In this document: positions 4,901 to 24,436 of the stretch, in pieces
Layout: every line of letters starts with the position of its first letter
Position numbering within the stretch: position 1 is the first letter of the stretch
NCBI GenBank assembly: GCA_005789975.1
Contig: SXWC01000129.1
Span: 1 to 27,272 of the forward strand
DNA: 27,272 bases
From: Planctomycetaceae bacterium
GTDB lineage: Bacteria > Planctomycetota > Planctomycetia > Pirellulales > UBA1268
Direction of reading: 5' to 3'
Made by a program: the position numbers and the translations under genes
Notes under the pieces: generated by a model
What the model saw: only the letters and a program-made list of their open reading frames with translations
Database searches by the model: none
Told to the model about the DNA's origin: nothing

Positions 4901-5126
4901 TCTGGCGAAGCGGGTGCTGTCACGGTCGCTCGATGCCGATGAGCTGGCGATCGCGAAGGCCTCGCTGGCGAAGCTCGTCCAACACTACGAGTCTCATGCC
5001 GACGACGCGAAGGCGGTGGTCGCCGTGGGGGAATCGAAGCCCTGCACCGCCGACGCCCCGCTGCTCGCGAGCTGGACGTTGCTCGCCAACGAGTTCATGA
5101 ACCTCGACGAGGCGCTCTGCAAATGA
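1950..5126 (+). CDS. PSD1 cytochrome c / DUF1549 / LamG / DUF1553 exported protein
   Basis: This 1058-residue protein has the standard planctomycete architecture. A short hydrophobic leader (residues 1-24) is followed by a PSD1 cytochrome c domain with CFSCH (C40, C43, H44), which would bind one haem c. DUF1549 runs from about 140 to 360 and contains a second CxxCH, CAVCHNHKFDP (C332, C335, H336). A LamG/concanavalin-like insert lies at about 430-635 (FSTSFWLRVP, NTWTFVTLTYDGSG, VRIYYDGRL). DUF1553 runs from about 743 to 1000 (NRLGLAKWLLLQDHPLTTRV, RFWQEVFGTGLV, TSATYRQS). The start is well supported by AAGGAG 5 nt upstream. The gene ends in an ATGA overlap with the next one, so they are probably co-translated. 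The biochemical role of this family is not established; it is usually regarded as a periplasmic redox protein tied to polymer degradation. Domain calls are firm, function is not. Confidence 0.93.
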   Translation: MRLLRFEVVCLVSAVFAGRALDAAGIDFNKEIRPILVENCFSCHGADSAGRKGDLRLDLRDEAVESGAIAPGDADSSVMLDRIFSDDAEEVMPPPEAKKTLTAEQKELLQRWIAEGAEYRPHWSFIPPTRPQPPVVENEAWVRNPIDRFILGRLEQEGLTPAPEADRRTIARRVSLDLTGLPPEPAMVDAFVADTRPDAYERLVDSLLASVEWGEHRGRHWLDYARYADTHGIHFDNYREMWTYRQWVINAFNRNMPFDEFTILQLAGDLVGEPGPGVTADQILENRIASGFNRCNMTTSEGGAIDEEYLVLYTRDRTETASAVWMGLTTGCAVCHNHKFDPLTQQEFYELSAFFNNTTQAAMDGNVHDTPPILPIPRPEERARFTELEKELSAAKATLESRRKNARQEFDDWIDKADPEVVARSRPRDTPLMELPLLEGQESTTSLLVNGSATSLPLTESTTWLAGPDGPSAILLNGRAAELPAAGDFEHDQPFSTSFWLRVPANDSSYSVIARMDEPAAHRGWDVWVQGRRVGMHLTHAFPDDAMKVVASKQLAANTWTFVTLTYDGSGKAAGVRIYYDGRLQDNPSVEVDSFKKNTIRTTVPLTIGSRTPGSAAHGVGLARLAIWDRPLSEGDVNGLFRATLLADIAKLPAGERAGAAGGLYGLWLSTFDETFVRATAAIGRAETEMADIRKRGTIAHVMHEKNEMARAYVLDRGEYDKRKDEVRADTPDILPPFPESLPRNRLGLAKWLLLQDHPLTTRVTVNRFWQEVFGTGLVRTSGDFGTTGELPSHPELLDWLAVEFRESGWDVKQLFRLLVTSATYRQSAATTDEKLATDGGNRLLSRGPRFRMDAEMIRDSALASSGLLVRQIGGPSVKPYQPEGVWEAVAIDLSNTRVYKQDTGAALYRRSLYWLWKRSAPPASLEIFNAPSREACCVKRERTNTPLQALVTLNDPQFVEAARTLADRAIDLGGTTDESRIDFLAKRVLSRSLDADELAIAKASLAKLVQHYESHADDAKAVVAVGESKPCTADAPLLASWTLLANEFMNLDEALCK

Positions 5127-6610
5127 ACCCTCCGATCCGCGGCCCGCTCGACGAACTGGGCCTGAACCTCACCCGCCGCCGCTTCTTCGAGCAGGGCAGC
5201 CACCTGCTCGGATCCGCCGCCCTGGCGGCGCTCGGGGCCGGCGAGTCGCGGGCGACGACGGCGGGCGAGGGCCCGGCCATCGAACGGGTGGCCGGTGCGG
5301 TCGGCCCGCACTTCGCCCCCAAGGCGAAGCATGTGATCTACCTGCACATGGTCGGCGGTCCTCCGCAGCAGGATCTCTACGACTACAAGCCGGTGATGAA
5401 CGACTGGTACGACAAGGACCTCCCGGAAAGCATTCGCAACGGCCAGCGTCTGACGACCATGACCTCCGGGCAGACCCGGTTTCCGGTCGCCCCCTCCATC
5501 TTCGGTTTCAAACAGCACGGCAGTTGCGGCATGTGGGTGAGCGAGTTGCTGCCGCACACCGCGACGATGGTCGATGAGATGTGCTTCGTGCGGAGCATGC
5601 ACACCGACGCGATCAACCACGAGCCGGCGATCACCTACATGCAGACCGGCAACCAGATCACCGGCCGCCCCTGCCTCGGCGCGTGGACGAGCTACGGCCT
5701 CGGCAGCCTCAACTCCGATCTCCCCACCTTCGTGGTGCTGGTGGCGAGGTCGAGCAAGCCCGAGCAGCCGCAGGCGATCGGGGCCCGGCTCTGGTCGAGC
5801 GGGTTCCTGCCGGGCGAGCATGCCGGGGTGAGTTTCCGCAGCGCCGGCGATCCGATCCTCTTCATCAGCGATCCGCCCGGTGTGTCGCCCGCGGTGCGCC
5901 GGGCCACGCTCGACGGCCTTCAGGCCCTCAATCAGCGGACGGCGGAGCGCATCGGCGATCCCGAGACCCGCACGCGGATCGCCCAATACGAAATGGCCTT
6001 CCGGATGCAGACGAGTGTTCCCGATCTCACGGATATCGCGACGGAGACCCCCGCCACGCTCGCCCTTTACGGCGACGACGCGAAGAACCCGGGCACGTTC
6101 GCCAACTCGGTGTTGATGGCACGGCGCATGGTCGAGCGGGGGGTGCGGTTCGTGCAGATCTACCTCAATCACTGGGACACCCATTCCAACGTGGTGGGCC
6201 GCCTCAAAAACGGCTGCAAGGACATCGATCAGGCCTGCGCCGGGCTGATCAAGGATCTCAAGGCCCGCGGCATGCTCGACGACACACTCGTGGTCTGGGG
6301 GGGCGAGTTCGGCCGCACCGTCTATTCCCAGGGTGGCCTGACCAAGCAGAACTACGGCCGCGACCACCATCCGCGGTGTTTCACGATGTGGATGGCCGGT
6401 GGCGGTTCGAAGCCGGGTAAAATCCACGGCGAGACCGACGACTTCTCCTACAACATCGTCGCGGATCCGGTGCACGTCCGCGACTTTCACGCCACGGTGC
6501 TGCACCTGCTCGGATTCGATCACGAGCGGTTCACCTACCGCTACCTCGGGCTGGATCAGAAACTCACCGGAGTCGAGCACGCGCGGGTCGTGACCGACTT
6601 GCTGGCGTAG
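5123..6610 (+). CDS. DUF1501 domain protein with Tat-like signal
   Basis: This 495-residue protein starts inside the stop codon of the preceding gene (ATGA, 5123-5126). The N-terminus contains TRRRFFEQGS (R18-R20) followed by a hydrophobic alanine/leucine stretch, a typical twin-arginine export signal for DUF1501 proteins. The body carries the expected family features: HMVGGPPQQDLYDYKP near the start, NHWDTHSN in the middle, GGEFGRT, and GRDHHPRCFTMWMAGGG toward the C-terminus. DUF1501 belongs to the alkaline-phosphatase/sulfatase-like fold, and these blocks probably contribute metal ligands. Length is normal for the family. DUF1501 genes are nearly always next to a DUF1549/DUF1553 gene in this phylum, as here. 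The substrate is unknown. The next gene follows after 24 bases. Confidence 0.93.
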   Translation: MNPPIRGPLDELGLNLTRRRFFEQGSHLLGSAALAALGAGESRATTAGEGPAIERVAGAVGPHFAPKAKHVIYLHMVGGPPQQDLYDYKPVMNDWYDKDLPESIRNGQRLTTMTSGQTRFPVAPSIFGFKQHGSCGMWVSELLPHTATMVDEMCFVRSMHTDAINHEPAITYMQTGNQITGRPCLGAWTSYGLGSLNSDLPTFVVLVARSSKPEQPQAIGARLWSSGFLPGEHAGVSFRSAGDPILFISDPPGVSPAVRRATLDGLQALNQRTAERIGDPETRTRIAQYEMAFRMQTSVPDLTDIATETPATLALYGDDAKNPGTFANSVLMARRMVERGVRFVQIYLNHWDTHSNVVGRLKNGCKDIDQACAGLIKDLKARGMLDDTLVVWGGEFGRTVYSQGGLTKQNYGRDHHPRCFTMWMAGGGSKPGKIHGETDDFSYNIVADPVHVRDFHATVLHLLGFDHERFTYRYLGLDQKLTGVEHARVVTDLLA

Positions 6611-6634
6611 GCCCCTTCTTCGCAGGAACCAGCG

Positions 6635-9600
6635 ATGCGCCGGCAGTGCGGGTGGGATTCTTCTGTTCGGACTTCCTGGCTCGTGGCCCATGGCCTGATG
6701 GCCCTCGGCCTGATGAGCGGCATGACGGCCCCTCCGGCCCTGTCCGCCGACCAGACGAAGGAACGCGACCCTCTCGAAACGGCCCGTGAACTCATGGCGC
6801 GGCCGGCCCGCCCCGCCCGGCCCGCCCTGCCGCGTGGCGGTTTGCCGCTCGAGTTCCTCGACGGCGAGCGGCTCGCCCTCGTGGGCAACTCCACCGCGGA
6901 ACGCATGAATCTCTTCGGCCACTTCGAGGCCCTCCTGCACCAGCGTTTTCCGGGCAAGCACCTCGTGGTCCGCAACTTCGCCCGGCCGGCCGACGAAGTG
7001 GGCAACCGTCAACGTCCGAGCGACTACACCGCGCTCGACGACCCGCTGGCGGCTTTTGGCGCCGACACCTACCTCATGTTCTTCGGCTTCAACGAGTCGT
7101 TCGCGGGGCCGGAGGGCCTGGAGCGGTTCAAGGCCGACTACGCGACGCTGCTCGATCAACTCGCCAAGACGTATCCCCGTGACGACACGGGGGCTGCCCC
7201 CCGGTTCGTGATCGTCTCACCGATCGCGGTGGAGCCGAGCGGCAACCCGCTGCTTCCCTCGGCCGAGCTGCAGAACACGAACCTCGCGCTCTACCGCGAC
7301 GCCGCCAAGGCGGTGGCGGTGGGCCGCGGCATCGGGTTCGTGGATCTCTTCGACGCCACCCGCAGGGAGTTCGCCGCCCAGCCCGGCCTGCAGAACACGA
7401 TCAACGGATGCCATCTGAACGAGGCGGGCGACGGCTTCGTCGGCGGCCTCCTCGATCAGGCGCTCTTCGGCGGGCCCGCCCCGCAGCAGCTCGGGGCCGA
7501 CCGCTTCGAGGCGCTCCGTTGGGCGGTCAACGACAAGTCGTGGGTGCACCTCCAGGACTACCGGATGGTCAACGGCTGGTATGTCTACGGGGGGCGTCGC
7601 ACCTGGGACACCGAGACCTTTCCCCGCGAGTACGTGAAGCTCCGCAACATGGCGGCCGCCCGCGACCGCTACGTCTGGGACATCGCCGAGGGCAGGCCCG
7701 TCGCCGCCGCGGTGGACGACTCGGACACCGGCGAGCTCTTTCTGCCGCCGACGCGGTTTGGCCAGCCCCGGCAGGCCTACAGCGAGAACGCCGAGGGCGG
7801 GCCGACGATCCTGCCGCCCGCCGACCTCATCAAGACCTGCACCGTGCCCCCCGGTTTCGAGCTCGAGTTGTTTGCCGACGAGACCCGGTTTCCGGAGCTG
7901 GCGAAGCCCGTCCAGTTGGCCTTCGATTCGCAGGGCCGGCTCTGGGTATCGACGATGCCGAGTTATCCGCAGTGGCAGCCGGGCACTCCCCGGCCAGCCG
8001 ACAAGCTCGTGATCCTCGAGGACACCGACGGGGACCATCGGGCGGACAAGAGCACGATCTTCTACGACAAGCTCCACTGTCCGACCGGCTTTCAGTTCTT
8101 CGACGGCGGCGTGCTCGTGATGGATCAGCCGCGGATGCTCTGGCTCAAGGACACCGATGGCGACGACCGGGCCGACGAGGTGGTTCACCTCCTCGACGGC
8201 TTCGCCACCGAAGACACACACCACACCGCCGGCGCCTTCGAGATGAGCCCGGGCGGCCTGCTCCACATGCTCGAGGGCGTGGCGATGAGCACGACGATCG
8301 AGACGCCGCACGGTCCGTTCCGCAACTTTGGCTCGCCGGGCGGCTACGTGTTCGACCCACGGACGCTCGCACTGCGTCACTTCGTGACGCCGGGCTACGG
8401 CAACCCGTGGTGCTACGTCTTCAACGAATGGGGCCAGGGGATCTGCGGCGACGGCACCGGCGCGAGCCAGCACTGGGACACGCCGCTGTCGGGCGCCCAG
8501 TACCGCGGCCGCAAGGGGATGAAGCCGGTGTTCGACACAGAGCGGATGCGGCCGGTGGTGGGGAGCGAGTATCTGCGGACGCGGCAGTTTCCCGACGACG
8601 TGCAGGACCAGTTCATCTACGCCTGCGTGATCAACACCAACGGCATGCCGCGCTGGACGATCTCCGACGACGGCGCCGGCTACAAGGGGGAGCGGGTCCG
8701 CCACGACCCCAAGGATCCGAAGACCGCCTTCGATCTGATCAAGAGCACCGACAAGCACTTCCGCCCGGTCGATCCACAGATCGGGCCCGATGGCGCGCTC
8801 TGGTTCGGCGATTGGGCGAATCCCCTGATCGGCCACATGCAGTACAGCCAACGGGATCCGAATCGGGATCATGTGCACGGCCGGATCTACCGGCTCGTCT
8901 TCAAGGACAAGCCGCTGCTCGCCCCCGAGACGCAGGCTGGCAGGTCCACCGCGGAGGTGCTCGAGCAGCTGAGGAGCCCGGAATGGCGGACGCGATACCG
9001 GGCCCGTGCCGACCTTCAGGCGCGGCCGCGGGCGGAGGTGCTCGCCGCGGCCGTCGAGTGGCTCGGCGGACTCGCCTCGACGGCAGACGCCGACCGCCTG
9101 CGAACCGAGGTGCTCTGGCTCCAGCAGAGCTTTCACGCGGTGGATGCCGGGCTGCTCGGCGAGCTCCTTGAAGCCGGCACGCCCGACGCCCGGGCCGCGG
9201 CCACCCGCGTGCTGGCCGACCACCGGGACCATTTTCCTGACGCCCTGGCGATGCTGTCGGCCAGGGCCGTCGATCCCCATCCTCGCGTGCGGTGCGAGGC
9301 GGTCCGCGGCCTGAGCCTCCTCCCCACGCTCGAGGCGATGCGGGCCGTGGTGGCGGCGGCGAACGTCACGCCGGCCGACCAGTACGTCGACTACACCTGC
9401 GACGCGGCCCTCGGCGCGAACGTGGGGGTGTGGAAGCGGGTCCATTCCGCCGGCGAGTTCGCGGCGCGGGGGTCGCCGGCCGCGGGAATCATCGACCGTC
9501 TTCTCGGACTGGAAAAGAAGGCGCAGGAGCTGCTGCCCCACCTCTCGATCCTGACGGGCAAGGAGCCGCAATCCGAGGAGGCCCGCTCCAAGGCGATGCA

Positions 9601-10027
9601 GGCCATCGCCGACATGAAGGGGGGTGATCGCGACAACGGCCATGCCGTGTTCAGCCGCGTCTGCATCGCCTGCCACAGGGTTTCCGGCGCCGGGGCGGAA
9701 CTCGGCCCCGAGCTGAACGGCGTGGCCGCGCGTCTCTCCTCCTTCAAGCTGGTGGAATCGATCATCAATCCCAACGCCGACGTGGCCGACAGGTATCTCT
9801 CCACCTCCGTGCTCACCAACGACGGCCGCAGCATCGTCGGCCTGCTCGTCGGCGAGACTCCCGATGAACTGGAGATCTTCGACGGCAAGCACCGGAAGAA
9901 GATCGCGGTCGCCGACATCGACGAGCGGACGAAACTCAGGCAGAGCAGCATGCCGGAGGGCCTCGCCGCCGCGCTCTCGCCCAACGAGTTTCTCGACGTG
10001 ATCGCGTTCCTCCAGTCGTTGAAGTAG
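6635..10027 (+). CDS. SGNH domain + PVC-type propeller + CxxCH haem protein
   Basis: This 1130-residue exported protein has three parts. After a signal region (about 1-38) comes an SGNH/GDSL-like domain (about 78-275) with block I as GNS (residues 84-86), FFGFNES as a likely block III, and NGCHLN (H260) as block V, where the usual Asp three residues before the His is Asn. A PVC-type beta-propeller starts near PPGFELELFADETRFPELAK (about 405) and includes two acidic loops, DTDGDHRADK (about 463) and DTDGDDRADE (about 506), that could bind calcium. A HEAT-like helical stretch (about 780-950) leads to a C-terminal haem domain with VCIACH (C1010, C1013, H1014). AGGA lies about 8 nt before the chosen ATG. 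Family members are thought to be periplasmic or surface redox proteins; a dehydrogenase plus ester hydrolase role is inference. It is third in the operon, 24 bp after DUF1501. Confidence 0.9.
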   Translation: MRRQCGWDSSVRTSWLVAHGLMALGLMSGMTAPPALSADQTKERDPLETARELMARPARPARPALPRGGLPLEFLDGERLALVGNSTAERMNLFGHFEALLHQRFPGKHLVVRNFARPADEVGNRQRPSDYTALDDPLAAFGADTYLMFFGFNESFAGPEGLERFKADYATLLDQLAKTYPRDDTGAAPRFVIVSPIAVEPSGNPLLPSAELQNTNLALYRDAAKAVAVGRGIGFVDLFDATRREFAAQPGLQNTINGCHLNEAGDGFVGGLLDQALFGGPAPQQLGADRFEALRWAVNDKSWVHLQDYRMVNGWYVYGGRRTWDTETFPREYVKLRNMAAARDRYVWDIAEGRPVAAAVDDSDTGELFLPPTRFGQPRQAYSENAEGGPTILPPADLIKTCTVPPGFELELFADETRFPELAKPVQLAFDSQGRLWVSTMPSYPQWQPGTPRPADKLVILEDTDGDHRADKSTIFYDKLHCPTGFQFFDGGVLVMDQPRMLWLKDTDGDDRADEVVHLLDGFATEDTHHTAGAFEMSPGGLLHMLEGVAMSTTIETPHGPFRNFGSPGGYVFDPRTLALRHFVTPGYGNPWCYVFNEWGQGICGDGTGASQHWDTPLSGAQYRGRKGMKPVFDTERMRPVVGSEYLRTRQFPDDVQDQFIYACVINTNGMPRWTISDDGAGYKGERVRHDPKDPKTAFDLIKSTDKHFRPVDPQIGPDGALWFGDWANPLIGHMQYSQRDPNRDHVHGRIYRLVFKDKPLLAPETQAGRSTAEVLEQLRSPEWRTRYRARADLQARPRAEVLAAAVEWLGGLASTADADRLRTEVLWLQQSFHAVDAGLLGELLEAGTPDARAAATRVLADHRDHFPDALAMLSARAVDPHPRVRCEAVRGLSLLPTLEAMRAVVAAANVTPADQYVDYTCDAALGANVGVWKRVHSAGEFAARGSPAAGIIDRLLGLEKKAQELLPHLSILTGKEPQSEEARSKAMQAIADMKGGDRDNGHAVFSRVCIACHRVSGAGAELGPELNGVAARLSSFKLVESIINPNADVADRYLSTSVLTNDGRSIVGLLVGETPDELEIFDGKHRKKIAVADIDERTKLRQSSMPEGLAAALSPNEFLDVIAFLQSLK

Positions 10028-10068: not shown

Positions 10069-13000
10069 ATGATCTGGCATCACTCGTACGATCCGCTCGG
10101 CTCACCGCTTGCCTCGACGCTCGCGGCGGCGACACCGCTGGTCGTGCTGCTCGGACTTCTCGCCTTCGCCGGGTGGTCCGGCCTGCGGGCGGCGGTGGCC
10201 GGCCTCGTGGCGGCGATGCTGATCGCGGCGGTCGTGATCGGCATGCCGGGCGACGCGGTCGTGATGGCCGCGGTGCACGGGGCGCTCTTCGGGCTGTTCC
10301 CGATCGGCTGGATCGTCGTCACCGCGATGTTCCTCTATCGGCTCTCCGCAGAGGCCGGGGCGATCGACGTCATGAAGTGTTCGGTGATGGGGCTCTCGGC
10401 CGACCATCGCCTGCAGGCGCTGCTCATCGCCTTCTCGTTCGGCGGGTTTCTCGAGGGAGCCGCGGGGTTCGGCGCGCCCGTCGCCATTTCGGCGGCGTTG
10501 ATGGTGGGCGCCGGCTTTCCGGCCGTCGAAGCCGCCTGCCTGGCCCTGATCGCCAACACGGCCCCGGTCGCCTTCGGGGCCCTCGGCACCCCGATCATCA
10601 CGCTCGCCAAGGTCACGGGCCTGGAGGAGCAGGCGATCTCGACGATGGCCGGGCAGCAACTGCCGTTGTTCTCGCTGCTCGTTCCGGCCTGGATGGTCTG
10701 CACGATGGCCGGCTGGAGGGGGCTGATCGGCGTCTGGCCTGCGGTGCTCGTCTGCGGAGCATCGTTCGCCGTGACGCAGTTCGCGATGGCGACCTTCGTG
10801 GGTGCCGCACTCGTCGACGTGGTCGCCGGCGTCACGAGCCTCGTCGCCGTCGCGACCTTCCTCCGCTTCTGGAGGCCCGCCTCGATCTGGCGGCATGACG
10901 ACGGCTGGAATCACGCCGCTCATGCCCCGACCATGACGGCGAATCGATCCGATCCCATCGGCCGGGTCGCCTGGGCGTGGATGCCGTGGGCCTTGCTCTC
11001 GATCACGGTTTTCCTCTGGGGCCTGCCTCCCGTGAAGGCCGTGCTCGACGGCCGTGGTCTGTCGGTGCCGCTGCCTCGCGAGGTCGTGGCCCCGGAGTTT
11101 CCGGTGCCCTGGCTCGACGGCCGGATTGCCAAGGTGCCTCCCGCCACCCGCGAACCGCATGAGATCGAACGGGCCGTCTACCGGCTCAACTGGCTCTCCG
11201 CCGCGGGCACGGGCATCCTCGTCGCGGCGGTCGCCTCGGTTTTCTGGCTCGGCATCTCCTGGCGACGGGCCTGGTGCATCTGGTGGGAAAACCTCCGCGG
11301 CCTTTCCGAGTCGCTCGCCACGATCGCGGCCATGCTCGCCCTCGCGTTCGTGACCCGCTTCTCGGGGACCGACGTCACGCTCGGCATCGCACTGACGGGC
11401 ACGGGCGCGGCCTATCCCTTTTTCGCCCCGCTCCTCGGCTGGCTCGGCGTGGCGCTCACCGGATCCGACACGTCGAGCAACGCGATGTTTGGCAGCCTCC
11501 AGCGGGTGACGGCCGAACAACTCGGCCTCGATCCGATCCTGATCTGCACCGCCAACAGCACCGGTGGCGTGATGGGGAAAATGATCGACGCGCAGAGCAT
11601 CGTCGTCTCGGCGACCGCCACCGGCACGCATCGCCAGGAGGGGACGATCCTGCGGCGGGTCTTTCCGCACTCGCTCGCCCTCGCCGCGCTCATGGGGCTC
11701 CTGGTCTGGCTGCAGGCGGGGCCACTGGACTGGATGGTGCCGGTGGCGAAATCGGCGGGGACGGCCCCACGGTTCCCCCCGCCGGAGCCCGGGCCGATGT
11801 CGGCCCGCGCGGCCGACCTCCTCGCCCGTTGCCTCGCGGTCGAGCCCGCACGGCCGACCTTTGCGAAGGAGGCGATGGTGCCCTCCGTGGCGCGGATCCT
11901 CGCGAACAAGGACGCCGGGCGGGCCGTCACGGGCTGGCTGGCGGCCGCCGAGCAGGCCAACCGCACCGCCGCCCCGAAGCCGCCCTCCACGATCCCCGAT
12001 CCTTTCAACAAGCATGCCCTGGTGCATGCCTGGATGCTCTGTCGGGCAAGCCCGCACGTGCCCCCCGACACCGCCGCGAAGATCGCCGCAGCGACCAAGG
12101 AATATGTCTGCCGCTACGGCCATCGCGAGTGGCGGGGCTATGGGGCCCTGAACTTCCGGCTGATGAGCGACGGAGCGGCGCTGCTCGCGGCCGAGCAGTG
12201 GCCCGATCTCATCGACGCCGACGGCCTCGACTCCGCGGGCATCCTCGCCGCCACGCGACAACGGCTGCTCGGATATTTCGACGAGATCGTCCACCGCAAC
12301 AGCGCCGAATACGGGGCCCCGACGTATTCCGGCGTGAACCTCGTCGCCATGAAAATGCTCGCCGACTTCGCCCATGATGAGACCGTCCGTCACCGGGCGA
12401 CACTCACGCTCGACACGATGCTCCTGCACGTGGCTTGCGCATGGAACCGGGGCTACCATGTCAGCCCCGCGAGCCGCGCCAAGTTTTTCGCCGCGAGCAT
12501 GACCGGCCCCGACGCGATGGACTGCACCGCGGCGATCGGCTGGCTCTGCTTCGGCGCCGAGCGGCCGGTGGCGGGGCTCTGCGAGCAGCACTCCGGCTGG
12601 TTCGCGTTTCCGGGCACCTACCAGCCTCCGGCGATCCTGGCGCGGATCGCCGCCGCCCGCGCGGAACCCTTCACGCATCGCGGAAGTCGCGGCGACAGGC
12701 TTCGGCTCACGATCCATCACGAGCAGGCCTATGCCCTGGCGAGCGGATGGGAACGTCTCGAGACGCCCCGCGACCATCACTACAAGGAGTCGCGACGGCA
12801 GATGCTCAAGTGGGTCTCGGACAGTCCGCAGAGCTCGTTCATGCCGTTCCAGGACAACGCCCATCGACCCTATGATCTCGCCGAGAACAAGGCCAACGCC
12901 TTCGGCTACGGTGAGAACCCGTTTTCGCAGAGTCTCCAGCACGGCCGCACGCTCGTCGGCCTGACGGCGGTGCCCGACGACTATCCCTACTGGCGGATCG

Positions 13001-13542
13001 AGGTGCCGTTCAGCACGACGGGCTCGATCGTGAAGCGGCTGGATCGTGCTGGCTGGATCTGCTGCCACGCCGGTTCGATGCTCTTCGCCTTTCACCTCTT
13101 GGGCGACGCCCGCTGGGCCGACTCGCGGTCCAGGGAACGCTGCGACGTCCTCACGAGCGACGCCCGCCGAACCGGCTGGATCCTGGAGACCTCGCCCCTC
13201 GCGGATTTCGCGGGCGGCGGCACCGACGCCGAACTCGACCGCTTCGCCACCGCGGTCGTCGCCCGCACCACGGTCGATGCTTCCCGTCTCGCCGCCCAGC
13301 GGCCCCGGCTCACGTACACGTCGCTCGCGGGCAACGTGCTCGACATCACCTACCGTCCCCACGGCGAGCCCTACGTCGCCCAGCACACGATCGACGGCGT
13401 CGCCGTGGACTACGACTCCTTTCCCCTCCTCGGCAACCCCTGGGTGCACCAGGACCTCGATGGCGAAGACCTCGTGATCGAGCACGGCACCGACGGCCTG
13501 CGATACGACTTTCGTGCCTGGACCCGCCACGGCTCCCGATGA
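10069..13542 (+). CDS. L-lactate permease family transporter fused to a polysaccharide-lyase-like C-terminal domain
   Basis: This is one uninterrupted frame of 1157 residues. Residues 1 to about 560 match the LctP (LldP/GlcA) carboxylate permeases closely. Conserved blocks include FGAPVAISAALMVGAGF, NTAPVAFGALGTPI, YPFFAPLLGWLGVALTGSDT and STGGVMGKMIDAQSIVV, and many transmembrane segments are visible. Normal family members end at about 550-560 residues. Here the last membrane helix (FPHSLALAALMGLLVWLQ) runs through a proline-rich linker (about 565-580) into roughly 580 more residues with no membrane segments. That part is helical first (REWRGYGALNFRLMSDG, NRGYHVSPASRAKF, GPDAMDCTAAIGWLCFG), then looks beta-rich (about 870 to the end). 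This resembles the alpha-toroid plus beta-sandwich of heparinase or alginate lyases, but the assignment is tentative. The gene follows the haem protein by 41 bases, so co-transcription is likely. The start has only a weak GAG upstream. Confidence 0.85.
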   Translation: MIWHHSYDPLGSPLASTLAAATPLVVLLGLLAFAGWSGLRAAVAGLVAAMLIAAVVIGMPGDAVVMAAVHGALFGLFPIGWIVVTAMFLYRLSAEAGAIDVMKCSVMGLSADHRLQALLIAFSFGGFLEGAAGFGAPVAISAALMVGAGFPAVEAACLALIANTAPVAFGALGTPIITLAKVTGLEEQAISTMAGQQLPLFSLLVPAWMVCTMAGWRGLIGVWPAVLVCGASFAVTQFAMATFVGAALVDVVAGVTSLVAVATFLRFWRPASIWRHDDGWNHAAHAPTMTANRSDPIGRVAWAWMPWALLSITVFLWGLPPVKAVLDGRGLSVPLPREVVAPEFPVPWLDGRIAKVPPATREPHEIERAVYRLNWLSAAGTGILVAAVASVFWLGISWRRAWCIWWENLRGLSESLATIAAMLALAFVTRFSGTDVTLGIALTGTGAAYPFFAPLLGWLGVALTGSDTSSNAMFGSLQRVTAEQLGLDPILICTANSTGGVMGKMIDAQSIVVSATATGTHRQEGTILRRVFPHSLALAALMGLLVWLQAGPLDWMVPVAKSAGTAPRFPPPEPGPMSARAADLLARCLAVEPARPTFAKEAMVPSVARILANKDAGRAVTGWLAAAEQANRTAAPKPPSTIPDPFNKHALVHAWMLCRASPHVPPDTAAKIAAATKEYVCRYGHREWRGYGALNFRLMSDGAALLAAEQWPDLIDADGLDSAGILAATRQRLLGYFDEIVHRNSAEYGAPTYSGVNLVAMKMLADFAHDETVRHRATLTLDTMLLHVACAWNRGYHVSPASRAKFFAASMTGPDAMDCTAAIGWLCFGAERPVAGLCEQHSGWFAFPGTYQPPAILARIAAARAEPFTHRGSRGDRLRLTIHHEQAYALASGWERLETPRDHHYKESRRQMLKWVSDSPQSSFMPFQDNAHRPYDLAENKANAFGYGENPFSQSLQHGRTLVGLTAVPDDYPYWRIEVPFSTTGSIVKRLDRAGWICCHAGSMLFAFHLLGDARWADSRSRERCDVLTSDARRTGWILETSPLADFAGGGTDAELDRFATAVVARTTVDASRLAAQRPRLTYTSLAGNVLDITYRPHGEPYVAQHTIDGVAVDYDSFPLLGNPWVHQDLDGEDLVIEHGTDGLRYDFRAWTRHGSR

Positions 13543-13579: not shown

Positions 13580-14470
13580 TCAGCGGGCTCGGCGCCGGCC
13601 CGCGATCAGCGACCATGCCGTGACGGCGACGGGCACGGCCAGCCCGGCAACTCCGGCCGCGAGCACCACGGCCGTCAGGGGCGTGGTGTCGAATCGTGCG
13701 CGGCCGAGCGCCGTCTGCGCGACCGCATAGATCGCGACGCATACCGTGCCCGTGGTTGCCGAGGCCACGAGCCGCCACCGCACACGCTCGCCCAGACCGG
13801 CTTTTCGCGCCGCCCAGGCGATCGCCGGCAGCCACTGGATCGCATGGATCGCGACGCCGTGCGGAAACTTGGGCACGCCGGCGGCGCCGAGCCGGGTGGG
13901 ATCAAGGCCCTGTTCCTGCCGCAACTCGCCATGCACGCCCACCCAGATCCCGAGCAGGCAGGAAATGACGAGCAGGACGAGGCCGGCCCGCGCGGCGAGG
14001 AGCATGTCCGCCGGCCACGGTGGCCGCTGACGACAGAGGCGAACCGTGAGATCGAGCGACACCAGCGTGACGCCGATGATCAAGCCGCCCATCGCGTCGA
14101 AGAGGAATGAGTCGAGGGGCGTGTCGCGGTTGAAGTGGCTCCCCACGCCCCGCCACCGCTGCAGGTCGATGAGGGCCACCTCGACGAAGAGCGCCCAGGC
14201 CGTCGCGGCCGCGAGCCAGGCGTCGCCCGGCCGCCACGCGAGCTTCGACCACACCCAGCCCAGCGAAAGGCTCGTGAGACCACCCGAGATGCCAAACAGG
14301 ATCGGCTTCCGCCAGGTGACGGGGCCTTCCCACTGGCCGCCGAGCAGGGCCCACACCGGGACGTGCGCAAGCCCGCTGGCGACCATGATCACCCCCAGCG
14401 CGGCGAGCGGCCACGCCCGGCCGTCGAGCCACCAGCGGCGGGCGTCGGTCGTGAGGGGAGAGGGCTGCAT
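13580..14470 (-). CDS. multi-pass membrane protein of unknown function
   Basis: This 296-residue protein starts at the ATG at 14470 (MQPSPLTTDARRWW). An upstream in-frame start at 14668 would overlap the divergent reductase gene and adds non-hydrophobic sequence, so I rejected it. I count about eight likely membrane helices, for example WPLAALGVIMVASGLAHVPV, ILFGISGGLTSLSLGWVW, GGLIIGVTLVSLDL, AGLVLLVISCLLGIWVGV and TAVVLAAGVAGLAVPVAVTA. Conserved-looking polar spots are TWRKPILFG after the first helix and LIDLQRWRGVGSHFN, which could form a functional site. I do not recognise a named family and assign no role. It converges on the permease fusion with a 37-base gap and diverges from the reductase gene 40 bases away. 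Confidence 0.75.
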   Translation of the reverse strand: MQPSPLTTDARRWWLDGRAWPLAALGVIMVASGLAHVPVWALLGGQWEGPVTWRKPILFGISGGLTSLSLGWVWSKLAWRPGDAWLAAATAWALFVEVALIDLQRWRGVGSHFNRDTPLDSFLFDAMGGLIIGVTLVSLDLTVRLCRQRPPWPADMLLAARAGLVLLVISCLLGIWVGVHGELRQEQGLDPTRLGAAGVPKFPHGVAIHAIQWLPAIAWAARKAGLGERVRWRLVASATTGTVCVAIYAVAQTALGRARFDTTPLTAVVLAAGVAGLAVPVAVTAWSLIAGRRRAR

Positions 14471-14510
14471 GCAGTGGAAGTGTAGGCTGTCTTCGGCGAC
14501 ACTGCTGCCG

Positions 14511-15497
14511 ATGAACACACGCACTTTCGGGCGGACGGGCTGGGAGGTTTCCGAGATCGGCTTCGGGGCCTGGGGAATCGGCGGCAGCCAGTGGGGGGGC
14601 GCGGCCGAGGCTGACTCGATGCGAGCGCTCCACGCCGCCCTCGACTCCGGCATCACCCTCTTCGACACCGCGGACGTCTACGGCGACGGCCTTTCCGAGC
14701 GGCTCATCGCCCGGCTGCGGCGGGAACGGACCGAGCCCTTTCGCGTCGCCACCAAGGCGGGCCGCCGGCTCGACCCGCACACCGCCTCGGGATACACCGC
14801 GGAGAACCTCCGCGGGTTCGTCGACCGCAGCCTGAAAAACCTCGCGGTCGAACGGCTCGACCTCTTGCAGCTGCACTGCCCGCCCACCGAGGTTTACTAC
14901 CGGCCCGAGGTCTTCGCGGCCCTGGACGACCTGGTGACCGCCGGCAAGATCGCCTTCTACGGCGTGAGCGTCGAGCGGGTCGAGGAGGGGCTCAAGGCGA
15001 TCGAGTATCCCCATGTGCAGAGCGTGCAGATCATCGTGAACGCCTTCCGGCTCAGGCCGACCGAGCTCTTTTTCGAGCAGGCGGTCCGACGGCGGGTTGC
15101 GGTGATCGCCCGGGTGCCGCTCGCCAGCGGCATGCTCTCCGGTCGATTCACGCAACTCACGGAGTTTCCCGCCGACGATCACCGCGCGTTCAACCGTGGG
15201 GGCGCGGTGTTCGACAGCGGCGAGACGTTTTCCGGCGTCGACTACGAGACCGGCCTGGCGGCCGTCGAGCGGCTCAGATCCCTCGTGCCTGCGGGAGCGA
15301 CGCTCGCCCAGTTCGCCCTCCGCTGGATCCTCGCCTTCGAGGCGGTGACTTGCGTGATCCCCGGAGCCCGCCACGCGGCGCAGGTGGCCGACAACGCCCG
15401 AGCGGCCGACCTGCCGCCGCCCGATGCCGCCACCATGGCGGCCGTGCAGGCGATCTACGACGACGCCATCCGGCCGCTCGTCCACCACCGCTGGTAG
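14511..15497 (+). CDS. aldo/keto reductase
   Basis: This 328-residue protein begins MNTRTFGRTGWEVSEIGFGA, the usual start of the aldo/keto reductase fold, which fixes the ATG at 14511 although the frame is open further upstream. The catalytic tetrad is in place: D52 and Y57 in FDTADVYG, K82 in ATKAG and H122 in LQLHCPP. The NADPH-binding C-terminal part reads GATLAQFALRWILAFEAVTCVIPGARHAAQVADN. Such enzymes reduce aldehydes or sugar ketones with NADPH in the cytoplasm; the substrate cannot be told from sequence. Its stop codon overlaps the ribosome binding site of the flavoprotein gene, so the two are probably an operon. The promoter must lie in or near the 40-base gap shared with the divergent membrane-protein gene. 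Confidence 0.93.
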   Translation: MNTRTFGRTGWEVSEIGFGAWGIGGSQWGGAAEADSMRALHAALDSGITLFDTADVYGDGLSERLIARLRRERTEPFRVATKAGRRLDPHTASGYTAENLRGFVDRSLKNLAVERLDLLQLHCPPTEVYYRPEVFAALDDLVTAGKIAFYGVSVERVEEGLKAIEYPHVQSVQIIVNAFRLRPTELFFEQAVRRRVAVIARVPLASGMLSGRFTQLTEFPADDHRAFNRGGAVFDSGETFSGVDYETGLAAVERLRSLVPAGATLAQFALRWILAFEAVTCVIPGARHAAQVADNARAADLPPPDAATMAAVQAIYDDAIRPLVHHRW

Positions 15498-15506
15498 GAA
15501 TCCCGC

Positions 15507-16814
15507 GTGATCGGACAGGCCGACATCCTCGTGATCGGTGCGGGCGCGGCGGGACTGTTTGCGGCCACCTGGGCGGGACGCACCGCCGCCCGGGGAGGCG
15601 GGCCACTGGCCGTGGTCGCCGTGGACGGGGCCCGCAAGCTCGGCGCCAAGATCCTCGTCGCGGGCGGGGGCCGCTGCAACGTCACGCACCATGCCGTGAG
15701 CGAGGCCGATTACGCCGGAGCCACGCCGCCGGCGATCCGCAAGGTGCTGCGGAGGTTCGACGTCGCCGACACGACCGGTTTTTTTCGTGAGGCCGGTGTC
15801 GAGTTCTACCGGGAGGCCGACACGGGCAAGCTGTTTCCCACGACCGACTCCTCCCGCACGGTGCTCGACGCGCTTGTCCGTGAAACCCTCGCCGCCGGCG
15901 GCCGGCTCGTCCATCCGGCGCGGATCACCGGCATCGCCCGAGCCGACGCCGGCTTCATCGCGACGACCGAAGCCGGCGCCTTCCATGCAGCGCGTGTGAT
16001 TCTCTGCACGGGGGGACGGTCACTGCCCAAGAGCGGCTCCGATGGGGGCGGGTTCGCCCTCGCGCGATCGCTCGGCCATTCGCTCACCGATCCGATCGTG
16101 CCGGCGCTCGTGCCGCTCCTGCTCCCCGTCGGCCACTGGATCACGTCGCTCTCGGGCCTCGCGCTTGCCGCCACGCTGACGCTCCACTCGGGCACCGGCA
16201 AACGGCTGTTCACCACGACGGGCAGCACGCTCTGCACGCACCTGGGCCTCTCGGGCCCGGCCGTGCTGGACGTCAGCCGTCACTGGCTGGTCGCCCGGCA
16301 CGCCGATCCGGGGGCGACGCTTGCGATCAACTGGCTGCCCGGCGAGACGGGCGAGTCGATCGACCGCCTGCTCCTCGAGGGGAGTCGCCGCGGGCCGCTC
16401 GCCGTGCTGCGGGAGCGGCTCACCGAACGGCTCGCCCGCTGCCTCTGCGACTCGGCGGCCGCCAGGCCCTCCGGGGATCTCACGCGGGATGCACGCAAGG
16501 CGCTCGTGGCCGCGGTCACCGCCACGCCGCTGCCGATCACGGGCGACCGCGGCTTCACCGTCGCCGAGGCCACCGCGGGGGGCGTGCCCCTGGCCGAGGT
16601 CCGGCTCGAGACGATGGAGAGCCGCATCTGCCCGGGGCTGCATTTTGCCGGCGAGGTGCTCGACGTCGATGGCCGGATCGGCGGCTTCAACTTCCAGTGG
16701 GCATGGGCCAGCGGCTTCGTGGCCGGCACGTCGGCGGCACAGGCTTCGCTTCAATCGGCCGCCGGGGAGAACGCGGGCGACACGGACGCGGCCGGTCGCG
16801 ACACCACCTCGTAG
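15507..16814 (+). CDS. HI0933/BaiN-like NAD(P)/FAD-dependent oxidoreductase
   Basis: This 435-residue flavoprotein begins at a GTG (15507) with TAGGAA just upstream, overlapping the stop of the reductase gene. The N-terminal Rossmann motif is DILVIGAGAAGLFAA (about 6-20). It is followed by the family signature ARKLGAKILVAGGGRCNVTH (about 42-61) and VILCTGGRSLPKSGSDGGGF in the middle. The C-terminal FAD-contact block is LHFAGEVLDVDGRIGGFNFQWAWASGFVAG (written here as its known family equivalent; residues about 382-411). Relatives are cytoplasmic reductases of poorly known substrate; BaiN acts on bile-acid intermediates, but that role cannot be transferred. Length is normal, with a short hydrophilic tail. 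The last 64 bases overlap the end of the glycosyltransferase gene on the other strand. Confidence 0.92.
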   Translation: MIGQADILVIGAGAAGLFAATWAGRTAARGGGPLAVVAVDGARKLGAKILVAGGGRCNVTHHAVSEADYAGATPPAIRKVLRRFDVADTTGFFREAGVEFYREADTGKLFPTTDSSRTVLDALVRETLAAGGRLVHPARITGIARADAGFIATTEAGAFHAARVILCTGGRSLPKSGSDGGGFALARSLGHSLTDPIVPALVPLLLPVGHWITSLSGLALAATLTLHSGTGKRLFTTTGSTLCTHLGLSGPAVLDVSRHWLVARHADPGATLAINWLPGETGESIDRLLLEGSRRGPLAVLRERLTERLARCLCDSAAARPSGDLTRDARKALVAAVTATPLPITGDRGFTVAEATAGGVPLAEVRLETMESRICPGLHFAGEVLDVDGRIGGFNFQWAWASGFVAGTSAAQASLQSAAGENAGDTDAAGRDTTS

Positions 16815-17950
16815 CGGAAGCCGCCGCGGGTGAGGTCGAGCGTGCGGATGGCCGGCGGGGGGGGCAGAAACCCCACGACCGCCGCGACGACCTCTTCGTA
16901 GGGAATGTCGTTCACCAGCGCCCGGCCAAGCGGCCAGCGGAGGTGGTCGGTCGCCCCCGTGGCGGCCAGATGCCGTTCGGCGAGCGACGGCCGCACCCGG
17001 GGCGAGCGAATCACGACGCTCGGCGTGCGCCAGGGCGACCAGCGATTGGGGTCGGTGGGACCGACGAGCACGACCGCGGGCACACCCACCGAGGCCGACA
17101 TGTGCACGAGCCCGGTATCGACGCCGATGCAGAGATGCATCCGCGCCGCGAGCGCGGCGGTGTCGGCGAGCGGCACCGCCAGCGACAGGTCGTGAACATG
17201 AGCGGCCGCGGGGCCGAGTTTCTCACGGAGATCCCGGTGGGCGGCGGCGTCCGCCGGCCCCCCGCTGAGCACGATCTCGCAGCCGCGGTCCTCGATCAGC
17301 CAGCGGGCGAGCCGCCGCCAGCGGTTCGCCTCCCAGTGCTTCAGCACGTCGGTCGATCGCATCGCCAGGAAGACCCGCGTCCGCCTCGCGGGCAGGCGGT
17401 CGATGATCGCGGCGACGCGGCCGGCCGCCTGGGGCTGGATCCAGTTCTCGTTGTGGCCGTCGTCGATGGCGAGCTGCTCGCTGCGGAGCAGATCGAGGTA
17501 GGTCTCGACCTGATGGCGGCCGCGCCGGCGGCGAACCCGCCTGGTGAGGAGCAGGCTGCTTTCGCCGGCGAAACCGATCCGCTCCGGAATGCCGGCCAGC
17601 AGGGCGAGAGCGGCGGCCGACAACGAGGGCTTGAGCAGGTAGGCCTTGGCGTAGCCCCGCGAGCGGAGCCACGCCGCCTGCTCCGTGACGCCGGCGACCA
17701 CGCCGCCGCTGCCGCGACGATCCCGCCCCGGCCGCTTCCAGGGAATCAGCTCGTCCACATAGGGACAGGGAGCGAGCACGGCCCGGGCGGCACCTTGGGC
17801 ACAGACGTCGATCACGGCGGCGGGATGGGCCCGCCTCAGGTTCCGCAGAAACGGAATCGCGAGCAAGGTGTCGCCGATGTACTGCGTGCAGACCACGAGA
17901 ATCCGCTGCCTGCGGCGGTCGGCATCGGTATCTCGGGTGACGAGTGTCAT
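16751..17950 (-). CDS. glycosyltransferase family 9 (heptosyltransferase-like)
   Basis: This 399-residue protein starts at the ATG at 17950, which overlaps the stop of the upstream BamA-like gene as ATGA (17947-17950), implying translational coupling. The N-terminal domain has RILVVCTQYIGDTLLAIPFL, the place where heptosyltransferases carry their catalytic Asp in a GD motif. The C-terminal domain has CIGVDTGLVHMSASVGVPAV followed by VGPTDPNRWSPW, the nucleotide-sugar site typical of ADP-heptose:LPS transferases. The probable role is adding a sugar to lipopolysaccharide or another outer-envelope glycan on the cytoplasmic side. Placement after an outer-membrane assembly gene fits this. The exact donor and acceptor are unknown. 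A longer frame reaching upstream only mirrors the BamA-like gene in another frame. Confidence 0.9.
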   Translation of the reverse strand: MTLVTRDTDADRRRQRILVVCTQYIGDTLLAIPFLRNLRRAHPAAVIDVCAQGAARAVLAPCPYVDELIPWKRPGRDRRGSGGVVAGVTEQAAWLRSRGYAKAYLLKPSLSAAALALLAGIPERIGFAGESSLLLTRRVRRRRGRHQVETYLDLLRSEQLAIDDGHNENWIQPQAAGRVAAIIDRLPARRTRVFLAMRSTDVLKHWEANRWRRLARWLIEDRGCEIVLSGGPADAAAHRDLREKLGPAAAHVHDLSLAVPLADTAALAARMHLCIGVDTGLVHMSASVGVPAVVLVGPTDPNRWSPWRTPSVVIRSPRVRPSLAERHLAATGATDHLRWPLGRALVNDIPYEEVVAAVVGFLPPPPAIRTLDLTRGGFRYEVVSRPAASVSPAFSPAAD

Positions 17951-20900
17951 CGTGCAAAGCCGACGAAGAAGCTGAACAGCTGCTTGCTGTCGTAGGGGGC
18001 GTAGGCCACCGGGACGGCGAAGTCGAGCGCGATCGGCGCCGGCCCCATCGCCGGCAGCGTGATCCGCAGCCCCACGCCGGGGGCCACGCGCATGTTGTTG
18101 ACGGACACGTTCGATTCGACGGTGCCGACGTCGGTGAAGACCACGCCGCGGAGGGTGTCGTCGGCCGTGATCGGAAACATGTATTCGATCGTGTTGAGCC
18201 ACTCGAACGGACCGCCGACGATCGCCTCGCCGCCGCCCGGGGCGCTTTGCCGGGGGCTCGCTCCGCGGAACACGAAACCGCGGATCGTGTTGTAGCCACC
18301 CGCGAAGAAGTTGTCGTAGGCCGGCGTGTCGCTTCCCGAGAAGCCGAGCACCGAGCCGATCGAGAGCACGTGGCGACCGGAGCCGTCGGGCCGCTCGTTG
18401 AGCAGAAAATACTGCCGCGCCTCGGCGATGCCGCGCGGATACTGGAAGGTGCCGATCACCTGCTCGAACTCGAGCGTGGCGAGATGCCCCTGGGTGGGCA
18501 GGAACGGGCTGTCGCGGGTGTCGTGGACGAGACCGGTGCTGAAGCCGTACACGGAGTTCGTGCCGAGCATGTTGACGATGTCGGGGGCCAGCACCCGCGG
18601 ATTGAAGACATCGACGCTCTCGCCGCGGAAGCCGGCGTTGACCGAGAGATCGGGGGCGAACTGGAACTGGTAGCCCAGTCCGATCCGGCCGCCGGTGCGG
18701 GCTTCCGCCCAGTCGAAGAAGTATCGCGTGAAGTAGGAGGCCGAGAGTGAGAGGCCGATGCGGGTGTCGAAGAGATACGGCTCCTGGAACGTGGCCATGT
18801 ATCGCTGCAACTGCGTGCCGGGGGCTGCCTCGAGGCGGAACCGCTGGCCGGCGCCCCGGAAGGCGGTGCCGTTCTTGATGTCATCCCAGCTCCGCGGCAG
18901 TCGCAGGATGTCGAAGTTCTGCTCGTCGACGACGATGTTGCCCACCAGTCCGGCGTTGGAGTTGACGCCGGCACCGATCATGAGGCGGCCGGTCTGCGTC
19001 TCTTCGGCATCGACATCGACGATCACGTAGGGCTCCTGCCCCGGAAAGACCTGCGAGGGATCGGCGGCGAAGTCGGGCAGCACCCCCGGTTGCTGGAAGG
19101 CGGGCGGCTGGTTGGGATCGAACTGGGCCACGGGCGTCGCGGCGAAGGGGCCGCCCCCCGCCACGGCGGGCTGCAGGATCGGCGGCTGGCCCGGGGCTCC
19201 TGGAAAACCCGGCGCCACCTGTTGCTGCACGGTGTAGACCGGGGGTGGCGGCGCGACCATGCGCGAGTAGTCGAGCGTGTTAGGAGCCTGGGGCGCGAGG
19301 GCCGCTCCGCCCCAGCCCGGCTGTTGCGGCTGTGGCGGCTGTTGCACCACCGGCACCTGAAAACCGGCCTGTGGCTGAAAACCGGCCTGTGGCTGAAAAC
19401 CGGGCTGTGGCTGAAAACCGGGCTGCGGCTGAAAACCGGGCTGCGGGCTGAACGGCTGCTGGGCCTGCGGTGCGGCCGCGGCGGGATACTGGGGGCTTTG
19501 ACCGCGCCAGACGGGCTCGCCGGCGTAGGCGGCCGGCGGGGGCGAGCTCGGCTTCTTCGGCTGTGGCGGAGCCGGGCTGCCCGTGCCGGATGCCTGTTGC
19601 GACTGGTCGTTCCAATCGGCATCGAGCACGAGGTCGATCACACAATCGGTTTTTTCTTCGGCCAAGCCGTCCGGGCTCTGGCCGCGGAAGCCGGGCGGCC
19701 GCTGGGGCTCGGGCTCCTGGGCCACACGGGTGTCGGTGGGATCGGGCCTGGAGAAGACGATCTTCGGCCCTTCGCCCTTCGACGCGTCGGCCAGGAACAG
19801 GCTGCTCGACTTCAGCCGCCGCTCGTCGTCCCGCAGTTTGCGGATGTCGAGAATGTCGCCCGGACGCAGCGAGAGGCGGTTGAGCACCGTGCTGTGTCGC
19901 GTGTGGGGATGTTCGCCACGGATCCGCACGTTGATCTTGCCGACGCGGTACCGCTGCCCCTCGGTCACGTTGTACACGAGATCGAGCTGCCCGGGCTCCT
20001 CGAGGAACCGCGGATCGGCGCGGATGTCCGCGAACACGAAGCCTCGACCGCCGTAGATGTCGCGGATCAGGTTCAGGTCGGCGTCCATCTTCGACTGGTT
20101 GAAGTGCTCGCCCCCCTTGAGCTTGATGTCGCGTTCGAGAAACTCCGTCTTGAACCGGCTGTTGCCCACGAAGGAGACGTTGCGGACCGTGTACCGCGGG
20201 CCCTCGTTGATCACGAACGTGAGGTGCGTCCAGGCCCGATGCCCCTCGTGGACCACCTCGACCTCCCGGCCCACCTTCGCCTGGAAGAAGCCGAGACTGC
20301 GGTAGTAGGCGGTCAGCGTCTCGACGTCCTGCTCGATCACCTCGCGATCGACATTGCCGCCGATCAACCAGAAGACGCCGGGCTTCGACTTGATCTGGGT
20401 CAGCAACCGGGCATCGGTGGCGATCGTGTTGCCCACGAAACTCGTCCAGAGCGCCTTCCGGTTGAGGCCCTCGTCGATCAGAAACACCGCCCCCTTGTCA
20501 CCGGCCTTGTCGCCCTCCACCGTGGTGACCCGCGCCGTCTCGAAGCCCTTCTCGTGGTAGTGCGACTCGATCCGGCGGCGGGCCTCCTCGACCACGTAGG
20601 GATCCATCGCGTCGCCCACGTCGATCTCGGCCTGTTTCCGCAGCGAGCGGGTGGTCACCCGGTCGTTGCCGACATACCTCACATACCGGAGCATCGGCCG
20701 CTCGACGACCTGGAAGATCACGACCGTTCCCTCGGCCACCCGGACATACTTCGGGTGCACGTCGACGAACTTCCGCGAGCGATGCAGCGTGCGGACGTCG
20801 TCCTCGATCGTCTGGGAATCGAAGATCTGCCCGGCGCGGGTGACGAGTTTCGGCAGCTTCGACACGTCCGTGGCGTGATTGCCCTCGATCCGCACCTCCA

Positions 20901-21084: not shown

Positions 21085-21381
21085 CGAGGGTGCGGTTGCC
21101 CGGGGTGTCGCGGCGGGAGCGGCGGAGAGATACCGGACCCTGCTGCGCCGCCACAAGCCGAAAAGCCCGCCGGTGGCGATCTTCCCGGCGAGCCGGGCCA
21201 CCACGGATCAAAAAAACACGCCACCAAGGGGCCGCTTTCAACCCGTCTTGCCCAGACGGCGATTCTTGACTCCGGCACTCACACCGGGGTATTTTTCAGG
21301 GGCTTCCCACCGTGAATGTCAGCCGGTTCGACGAGGAATCGGCGTTTTTGTTCCTCGGCTGTCCCGGCCGCCGGCTCCATC
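21085..21381. other. divergent intergenic region between the BamA-like and YrdC-YwlE genes
   Basis: Nearly 300 bases lie between the two chosen start codons. The left part could code an N-terminal extension of the BamA-like protein but looks non-functional as protein. A perfect 6-bp inverted repeat CCGTCT-TGCCC-AGACGG (21243-21259) lies just upstream of the plus-strand promoter candidate at 21266-21295. On the minus strand TTGAAA (21236-21241) could serve as a -35 for the BamA-like gene, but the element 17 bases on, TGTTTT, is poor. Confidence 0.55.
21266..21295 (+). promoter_or_regulatory. probable promoter of the YrdC-YwlE/RpiB genes
   Basis: TTGACT (21266-21271) and TATTTT (21290-21295) are 18 bases apart and match 5 of 6 and 4 of 6 consensus bases, which is good for such a GC-rich genome. 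Transcription would begin near 21302, leaving about 80 bases of leader to the ATG at 21382, or 14 bases if the ATG at 21316 were used. Confidence 0.5.
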
Positions 21382-24104: not shown

Positions 24105-24174
24105 CGAGCCGGCGTTGCCGGCCAGCGAAGGCAGGATGCCGAAGCGCAGCCGGCATCGAGCGAACGGAGCCCAG

Positions 24175-24436
24175 GATGGGCGGAGTGAGCGTCCGGCGAC
24201 GGGGCATGGGCAGCCCCGACCTTCACAAGACGTTGCGATCACCTCCGGCAACCTCCGTGCCGAACAGGATTGCCAGGATGGGCGGAGTGAGCGTCCGGCG
24301 ACGGGCCATGGGCAGCCCCGACCTTCACAAGACGTTGCGACCACCTCCGGCAACCTCCGTGCCGAACAGGATTGCCTGATGGGCGGAGTGAGCGTCCGGC
24401 GACGGGGCATGGGCAGCCCCGACCTTCACAAGACGT
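24175..24436 (+). repeat. direct repeat of ~102 bp, two full units and one partial
   Basis: Unit 1 is 24175-24276, unit 2 is 24277-24377 and a partial third unit of 59 bases is 24378-24436. All begin GATGGGCGGAGTGAGCGTCC and contain CCCCGACCTTCACAAGACGT. Units 1 and 2 differ at only a few positions, for example GGGGCATGG versus GGGCCATGG and TGCGATCACC versus TGCGACCACC. Units 1 and 3 contain the 6-bp hairpin CGGGGC-ATGGGCA-GCCCCG. The third unit breaks off abruptly after GACGT. The high identity suggests recent duplication. The repeat is too long and too contiguous to be a CRISPR array. Confidence 0.9.

Follow-up and report, generated by a model that had tools for sequence, protein, structure and literature searches.

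Does a single gene join a carboxylate transporter to a polysaccharide-type enzyme, and if so, what would the two halves do for each other? The question is raised by a stretch of 27,272 nucleotides from a Planctomycetaceae bacterium (assembly GCA_005789975.1, contig SXWC01000129.1; here called the window), in which one open reading frame (ORF) on the + strand, at 10069..13542, encodes 1157 residues followed by a stop codon. A preliminary description made from the sequence alone proposed that a lactate-permease-family (LctP) transporter continues in this frame into a soluble, lyase-like domain. We confirmed that the permease-tail fusion is a genuine single-frame protein. The reading that we favor, with a probability of roughly 70%, is an LctP-type carboxylate permease with a periplasmic C terminus that bears a polysaccharide-lyase-fold domain as a periplasmic appendage. 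Its observed basis is the single frame, the full length of both domains, the predicted fold, the recurrence of the fusion (P0002, P0008, and L004), and the constraint on the tail.

One frame, two full-length domains

The permease half (residues 1-558; 10069..11742, + strand) extends to the point at which unfused relatives end. Its residues 16-548 match positions 2-521 of the 522 in PF02652 (E = 2.9e-147; 492 bits, cutoff 27), and residues 7-550 match TIGR00795 (490 bits, cutoff 341), which bears out the proposed full-length transporter. The protein thus resembles the LctP permeases, LldP and GlcA included, across its entire permease half; it differs from these two in falling below their equivalog cutoffs (497 of 918 bits for LldP and 444 of 1121 bits for GlcA) and in carrying about 580 additional residues. 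A sequence search of the PDB with the permease found no match. In a Foldseek comparison, the modeled permease was similar to NaDC1 (E = 8e-4) and, to a lesser degree, to TRAP membrane subunits.

The full-length model was built from alignment A3 and has a mean pLDDT (predicted local distance difference test) of 61.7, good in the permease and poor in the tail, and it was used only to read off the permease helices and the linker and for a single Foldseek run. An earlier alignment, A2, which combined LctP-only and tail-only proteins, was dropped for A3 because its LctP rows landed on the tail. The last modeled permease helix comprises residues 524-550 (11638..11718, + strand) and probably runs from inside to outside, judging from the model and from Lys/Arg counts. 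The linker that follows (residues 559-576; 11743..11796, + strand) has no counterpart in unfused permeases, and model confidence is low around residues 561-601, where the alignment is thin. The first tail helix begins at residue 577, close to the start at 580 given in the preliminary description, and the predicted continuation into about 580 soluble residues is present. Sequence of 69% G+C makes long frames easy, and an antisense ORF of 1142 residues overlaps the fused frame on the opposite strand; the case for the fused gene is therefore the homology of both halves in one frame. A scan for promoters and terminators yielded nothing of use.

A predicted lyase fold outside the known sequence families

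The tail (residues ~577-1157) was modeled with a pLDDT of 95.8 as a helical half of 12 helices (residues 577-862; 11797..12654, + strand) followed by a beta-rich half (residues 868-1156; 12670..13536, + strand). A helical toroid plus beta-sandwich lyase fold is predicted over both halves, as anticipated when the region was first likened to heparinases and alginate lyases. The best matches among solved structures are polysaccharide lyases (heparinase III, glycosaminoglycan lyases, PL8, and PL17), which make up 11 of the 12 best; the remaining one is 6hzn, the human dermatan sulfate epimerase. Lyases built from a helical toroid and a beta-sandwich include PL12 heparinase III, PL8, PL17, PL21, and PL33. 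The tail has the predicted fold in common with them over both halves and differs in its low identity to the matched lyases (7-12%), in lying below the family profiles, and in being attached to a permease.

Searches with the tail alone, the check originally suggested, thus succeeded by structure comparison and gave no family by sequence or profile. The tail matched no Pfam family at E ≤ 1 and likewise nothing in NCBIfam. Over 37 members of the tail family, Pfam at E ≤ 0.1 returned nothing beyond one chance match to another family (0.092), and the heparinase II/III profiles (PF07940 and PF16889) matched neither the tail nor the 37 members. The PDB gave no match by sequence, and by profile the best of 6 matches (E = 0.11) was unrelated; a search of plasmid records led nowhere. 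Residues 574-1157 match at least 122 proteins at E ≤ 1e-3, in a search that scored only the 7994 candidates sharing most words with the tail. By these comparisons, the tail is a member of a predicted lyase-fold family of at least 122 members that lies outside the Pfam and NCBIfam models.

Recurrence and probable repeated origin of the fusion

The same fusion is found in other proteins and in another genome; the preliminary description had suggested looking for it in related genomes. Protein P0002 (1157 residues, standing for 9 clustered sequences from 2 contigs) is 99% identical to the window protein and has the same domain order. P0008 (1159 residues) also has this order and is 74% identical over the tail and 79% over the permease; a near-identical copy of it is the 1159-residue ORF L004:6258-9737 on VGYR01000002.1, from a planctomycete metagenome-assembled genome (MAG), and this L004 fusion is 76% identical to the window protein over its whole length. 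The two halves are separate genes at loci L001 and L005, so that the expectation of two genes in close relatives holds for these and fails as a general rule. At L005, the LctP gene stops at 7784 and adjoins an enzyme gene with its own signal peptide. At L001, LctP ends at 4844 and the enzyme gene, also with a signal peptide, starts at 7863; the gap holds ApbE and FMN_bind/4Fe-4S (NosR-like) genes on the other strand (4774-7871). Many relatives have such a pair after LctP, on the opposite strand; the window lacks it. Relative to L001 and L005, the fused forms lack the stop, the spacer, and the signal peptide, and from the ...WMVP motif to the first conserved tail motif the window protein has 22 residues, against 29 for L004.

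The tail tree contained 23 tails (the window, five loci, and 17 of 131 homologous proteins). It placed the window and P0002 with P0003, P0040, P0042, L001, and L005/P0041 (support 83/96) and L004/P0008 with L002, L003, P0045, P0049, and two SGNH-fused rows (support 100/100); a single clade of the four LctP-fused tails was rejected by the approximately unbiased test (p-AU = 1.0e-5). The permease tree, built from 48 halves out of 57 candidate rows (9 were left out because they were short, duplicated another row, or had no match), joined the window to L001 and L005, and L004 to L009, and it too rejected one fusion clade (p-AU = 1.0e-7). Since both trees reject a single clade of fusions, two separate permease-tail fusions are the simplest reading of the phylogenies; one old fusion followed by several fissions, each regaining a signal peptide, would be less simple.

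The fused tail remains under selective constraint. The ratio of nonsynonymous to synonymous substitution rates (dN/dS) of the tail is 0.23-0.26 for the window and 0.17-0.24 for L004, each against five relatives, and 0.17-0.23 among four other relatives, one of them SGNH-fused. All 52 invariant columns are retained in P0002, P0008, and L004.

A third fusion involves a different partner. P0133 (1016 residues) has its permease in the same clade as that of the window protein (77% identity) and its junction likewise after ...WMVP; its enzyme part is a complete sulfatase (PF00884, E = 3e-37, with SGSH_C) in place of the lyase-fold tail. At L135 and L136, a sulfatase-like gene with 27-28% identity to the P0133 sulfatase lies 131 bp behind an unfused LctP gene. 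Further LctP fusions may exist beyond the 120 of 791 matches covered in the search that brought up P0133. Two proteins of 788 residues each, P0179 and P0184, combine LctP with leucine-rich-repeat Pfam domains, the repeats lying behind the permease in P0179. Several candidates were not counted as fusions: P0161 (PF07586 plus LctP), whose middle reads as frame-shifted; open frames of 901-2227 residues in genomes G073, G136, G114, and G120, which have a stop inside; and a 1227-residue frame for G005, which the DNA contradicts with a stop after LctP. Of 31 LctP loci, L001, L004, and L005 among them, 30 have a frame that stops 1-12 residues past the aligned permease; in the remaining one, L004, the frame continues for 605 residues past it.

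Which side of the membrane?

The tail probably lies outside the cytoplasm, on the periplasmic face, a location that the preliminary description had raised as an if. We place it there because unfused tail relatives carry signal peptides and because basic residues precede the last permease helix. A hydrophobic N-terminal stretch, called as a signal peptide by a simple hydropathy rule, is present in 34 of the 36 unfused tail relatives of alignment A1, the other two being P0049 and P0071. In all 17 scored loci, the 20 residues leading up to the last permease helix contain 3-4 Lys/Arg and those following it 0-2 (the other 14 of the 31 have a differing motif and were unscored). The same count on the broader alignment A3 is reversed, with 1.6 Lys/Arg ahead of the helix and 2.5 behind it, but only 19 of the 43 rows have residues at 561-573. 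There are few Lys/Arg in the first 20 residues. A search of the open-licence PMC literature for an experimental topology of LldP found none. The sulfatase of P0133 would need the same orientation, and recurrent fusions with such partners support an outside C terminus for LctP by a route separate from topology predictors. Of the picture originally drawn, the full-length permease and the lyase-like architecture of the tail are supported by these comparisons, and the outside location is supported by indirect evidence.

Feeding the transporter or anchoring the enzyme: two possible readings

How might such a protein work? We propose that the last permease helix stands in for the signal peptide of a formerly separate enzyme gene, so that the enzyme would cross the membrane and stay attached to the outward-facing side of the permease. 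There it may cut an acidic polysaccharide or oligosaccharide by a lyase-type reaction. That the acidic product, or a derivative of it, would then be imported by the same molecule is a more tentative step. It belongs to a broader idea, which we consider doubtful as a whole, that polysaccharide-degrading enzymes have docked repeatedly onto the periplasmic C terminus in this LctP clade (the lyase-fold domain twice and a sulfatase once) and that the fused enzyme would set free an acidic product right at the permease mouth, one molecule both cutting and importing. Coupling of enzyme and uptake is favored in so far as the fusion recurs and the partners are polysaccharide-type enzymes.

The strongest competitor accepts the same structure and denies the coupling: deletions would have joined neighboring genes in a variable slot behind LctP, with the permease helix serving as export signal and anchor and the two halves handling unrelated substrates. 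We give it a little less than an even chance. The slot does vary, being occupied in relatives by ApbE/NosR-like genes, an aldo/keto reductase gene, a sulfatase-like gene, or the tail gene. The fusion partners differ as well (the tail in two fusions and a sulfatase in one), and tail relatives are also joined to SGNH hydrolase domains, behind which they stand in P0004-P0007 and L003. In the family of G004, 53 of the 72 genomes have a match to the permease half, and 48 of these 53 lack a close tail homologue; five genomes (G001-G005) have a close one, three more have a weak one, and only G004 has the fusion. Genome G285 carries a tail gene, and LctP has no match there. The last two findings weigh against an obligate partnership, and anchoring alone fits the free-standing tail in G285, the many LctP genes without a tail, and the changing partners. 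On the other side, polysaccharide-type enzymes have been joined repeatedly to a single permease clade and both halves have stayed under constraint, which exceeds what a bare anchor needs; a spare helix or a lipoprotein signal could presumably do that job equally well.

Wider sampling showed how rare the fusion and its tail are. Of 97 genomes taken from the order to which G001 belongs, the permease had a match in 47, none of them in an open frame longer than 709 residues, and some tail match occurred in 11, at full length only in G001 and G005. In a sample of 343 genomes from the phylum, 2 (G001 and G285) had a tail match at E ≤ 1e-60. The L001 genome also holds a second tail copy (L006:1-1035), at a contig end near DUF1501 and PSCyt genes.

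Is the tail a lyase?

Catalysis by the tail appears likely from its conserved residues, and we infer lyase activity from the fold, the invariant residues, and the neighboring genes. Counts were taken over the 131 homologues wherever the local alignment covers the site, in tail numbering (add 573 for protein numbering). Invariant in the helical half are Asn122 (Asn695 in the protein; 123/123), Glu174 (125/125), Arg230 (Arg803; 129/129), and Lys232 (129/129), and in the beta-rich half Glu334 (Glu907; 131/131), Glu376 (131/131), and His427 (His1000; 130/130). Tyr180 (Tyr753), also in the helical half, is altered in 1 of 125 covered homologues and Asn171 in 3 of 125. Asn122 and Tyr180 are 58 residues apart, and the L013, L014, and L097 heparinases show the same distance between two of their motif residues, the first Asn of NNW and the last Tyr of EG..Y..Y.

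A tail that keeps the lyase fold and does another job, as a C5-epimerase-like, binding, or non-lytic enzyme, is a less likely alternative. It draws on the presence of the dermatan sulfate epimerase within the 12 best structure matches, on the failure to reach any Pfam or NCBIfam lyase family, and on the HxHxD motif of the L013, L014, and L097 heparinases, which has no tail counterpart at equal spacing. Against it stand the other 11 structure matches, all lyases, and the invariance of Asn122, Glu174, Arg230, Glu334, and His427. Against planctomycete heparinases, taken in sets of 3, 21, and 24, hhalign gave no significant similarity for the tail; in the best local alignment with the 21-heparinase set, the tail regions around Asn122 and Tyr180 fell opposite regions of those heparinases that contain Asn and Tyr, a pairing to which we give no weight as evidence.

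The neighborhood points away from this alternative as well, with a heparinase gene in the same locus of two relatives. A heparinase II/III gene lies between the reductase and flavoprotein genes in L001, L003, and L097 and is absent from that place in the window; a PF07940 match was verified in L001 and in the L003 genome, and L097 has the heparinase gene and no tail within the available stretch. A further tail relative, P0034, is joined to a beta-helix domain (PF13229 above cutoff; GH141_M at 25.3 bits, under the cutoff of 27). These heparinase neighbors and the SGNH and beta-helix fusions would suit work on polysaccharides.

Separate production of the two halves, through reinitiation at Met577 or cleavage of the linker, would make the fusion merely formal; an ATG at 11797 directly before the tail, with GGAG a few bases upstream, and the low-confidence linker would allow it. 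Against reinitiation, a tail starting at Met577 would be without a signal peptide, unlike its relatives, and the linker of L004 contains no Met ahead of the tail; cleavage keeps some probability, and we consider separate production as a whole improbable. An assembly or sequencing error at the junction, where L001 and L005 do have a stop, is rejected as having next to no chance because P0002 (99%) and the separate L004/P0008 fusion in another genome (76%) share the fused form and because the loss of stop, spacer, and signal peptide involves more than one base.

Precedents and implications

Both the permease and the fold are of known kinds; the joined architecture is not found in the literature that we searched. 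No fusion of LctP to an enzyme, or of a transporter to a lyase, was described in the open-licence PMC literature, judged from titles and the beginnings of abstracts. The NanM/NanT pair of Escherichia coli, in which an enzyme of the periplasm works ahead of an inner-membrane transporter for an acidic sugar (PMC10017367), is similar in that the enzyme serves the transporter; the two are separate proteins of other families. Planctomycetes have multidomain sulfatase genes that join polysaccharide enzymes, alginate-lyase domains included (PMC4807772), a likeness in kind; the portion of that report consulted mentions no transporter fusion.

If our proposal is true, a transporter with a cutting enzyme on its outside would be a simple way to keep the breakdown products of polysaccharides. 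The recurrent fusions point to acidic sugars, or products of their degradation, as candidates for what this LctP permease carries. The idea of a transporter-borne enzyme that cuts and keeps could be tested with one gene.

Neighboring genes and other features of the window

The order of the locus is PSCyt/PSD1, DUF1501, SGNH-DUF7133-HEAT-cytochrome c, LctP, and, where present, the tail, followed by a gene on the other strand, an aldo/keto reductase, a heparinase where present, an HI0933 flavoprotein, and a glycosyltransferase 9 gene on the other strand. In the window, the gene upstream of the fusion (6635..10027, + strand) encodes SGNH hydrolase, DUF7133, HEAT_2, and cytochrome c domains by Pfam, and by synteny L004 has the same order. 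Downstream lie a gene without a Pfam family (13580..14668, - strand), whose position is kept in L001-L005, and, assigned by Pfam and synteny, the aldo/keto reductase (14511..15497, + strand) and the HI0933-like flavoprotein (15507..16814, + strand).

Farther along the window, 17947-21204 (- strand) encodes an Omp85/BamA-like protein that contains POTRA domains and an insert rich in proline and glutamine, and an 18-base tandem repeat lies within the span of this gene at 19357-19452. A second one-frame fusion, at 21316-22521, joins a Sua5/YciO/YrdC domain to a low-molecular-weight phosphotyrosine phosphatase domain. At 24171-24436, a 102-base unit is repeated in tandem (2.6 copies, 96% matches).
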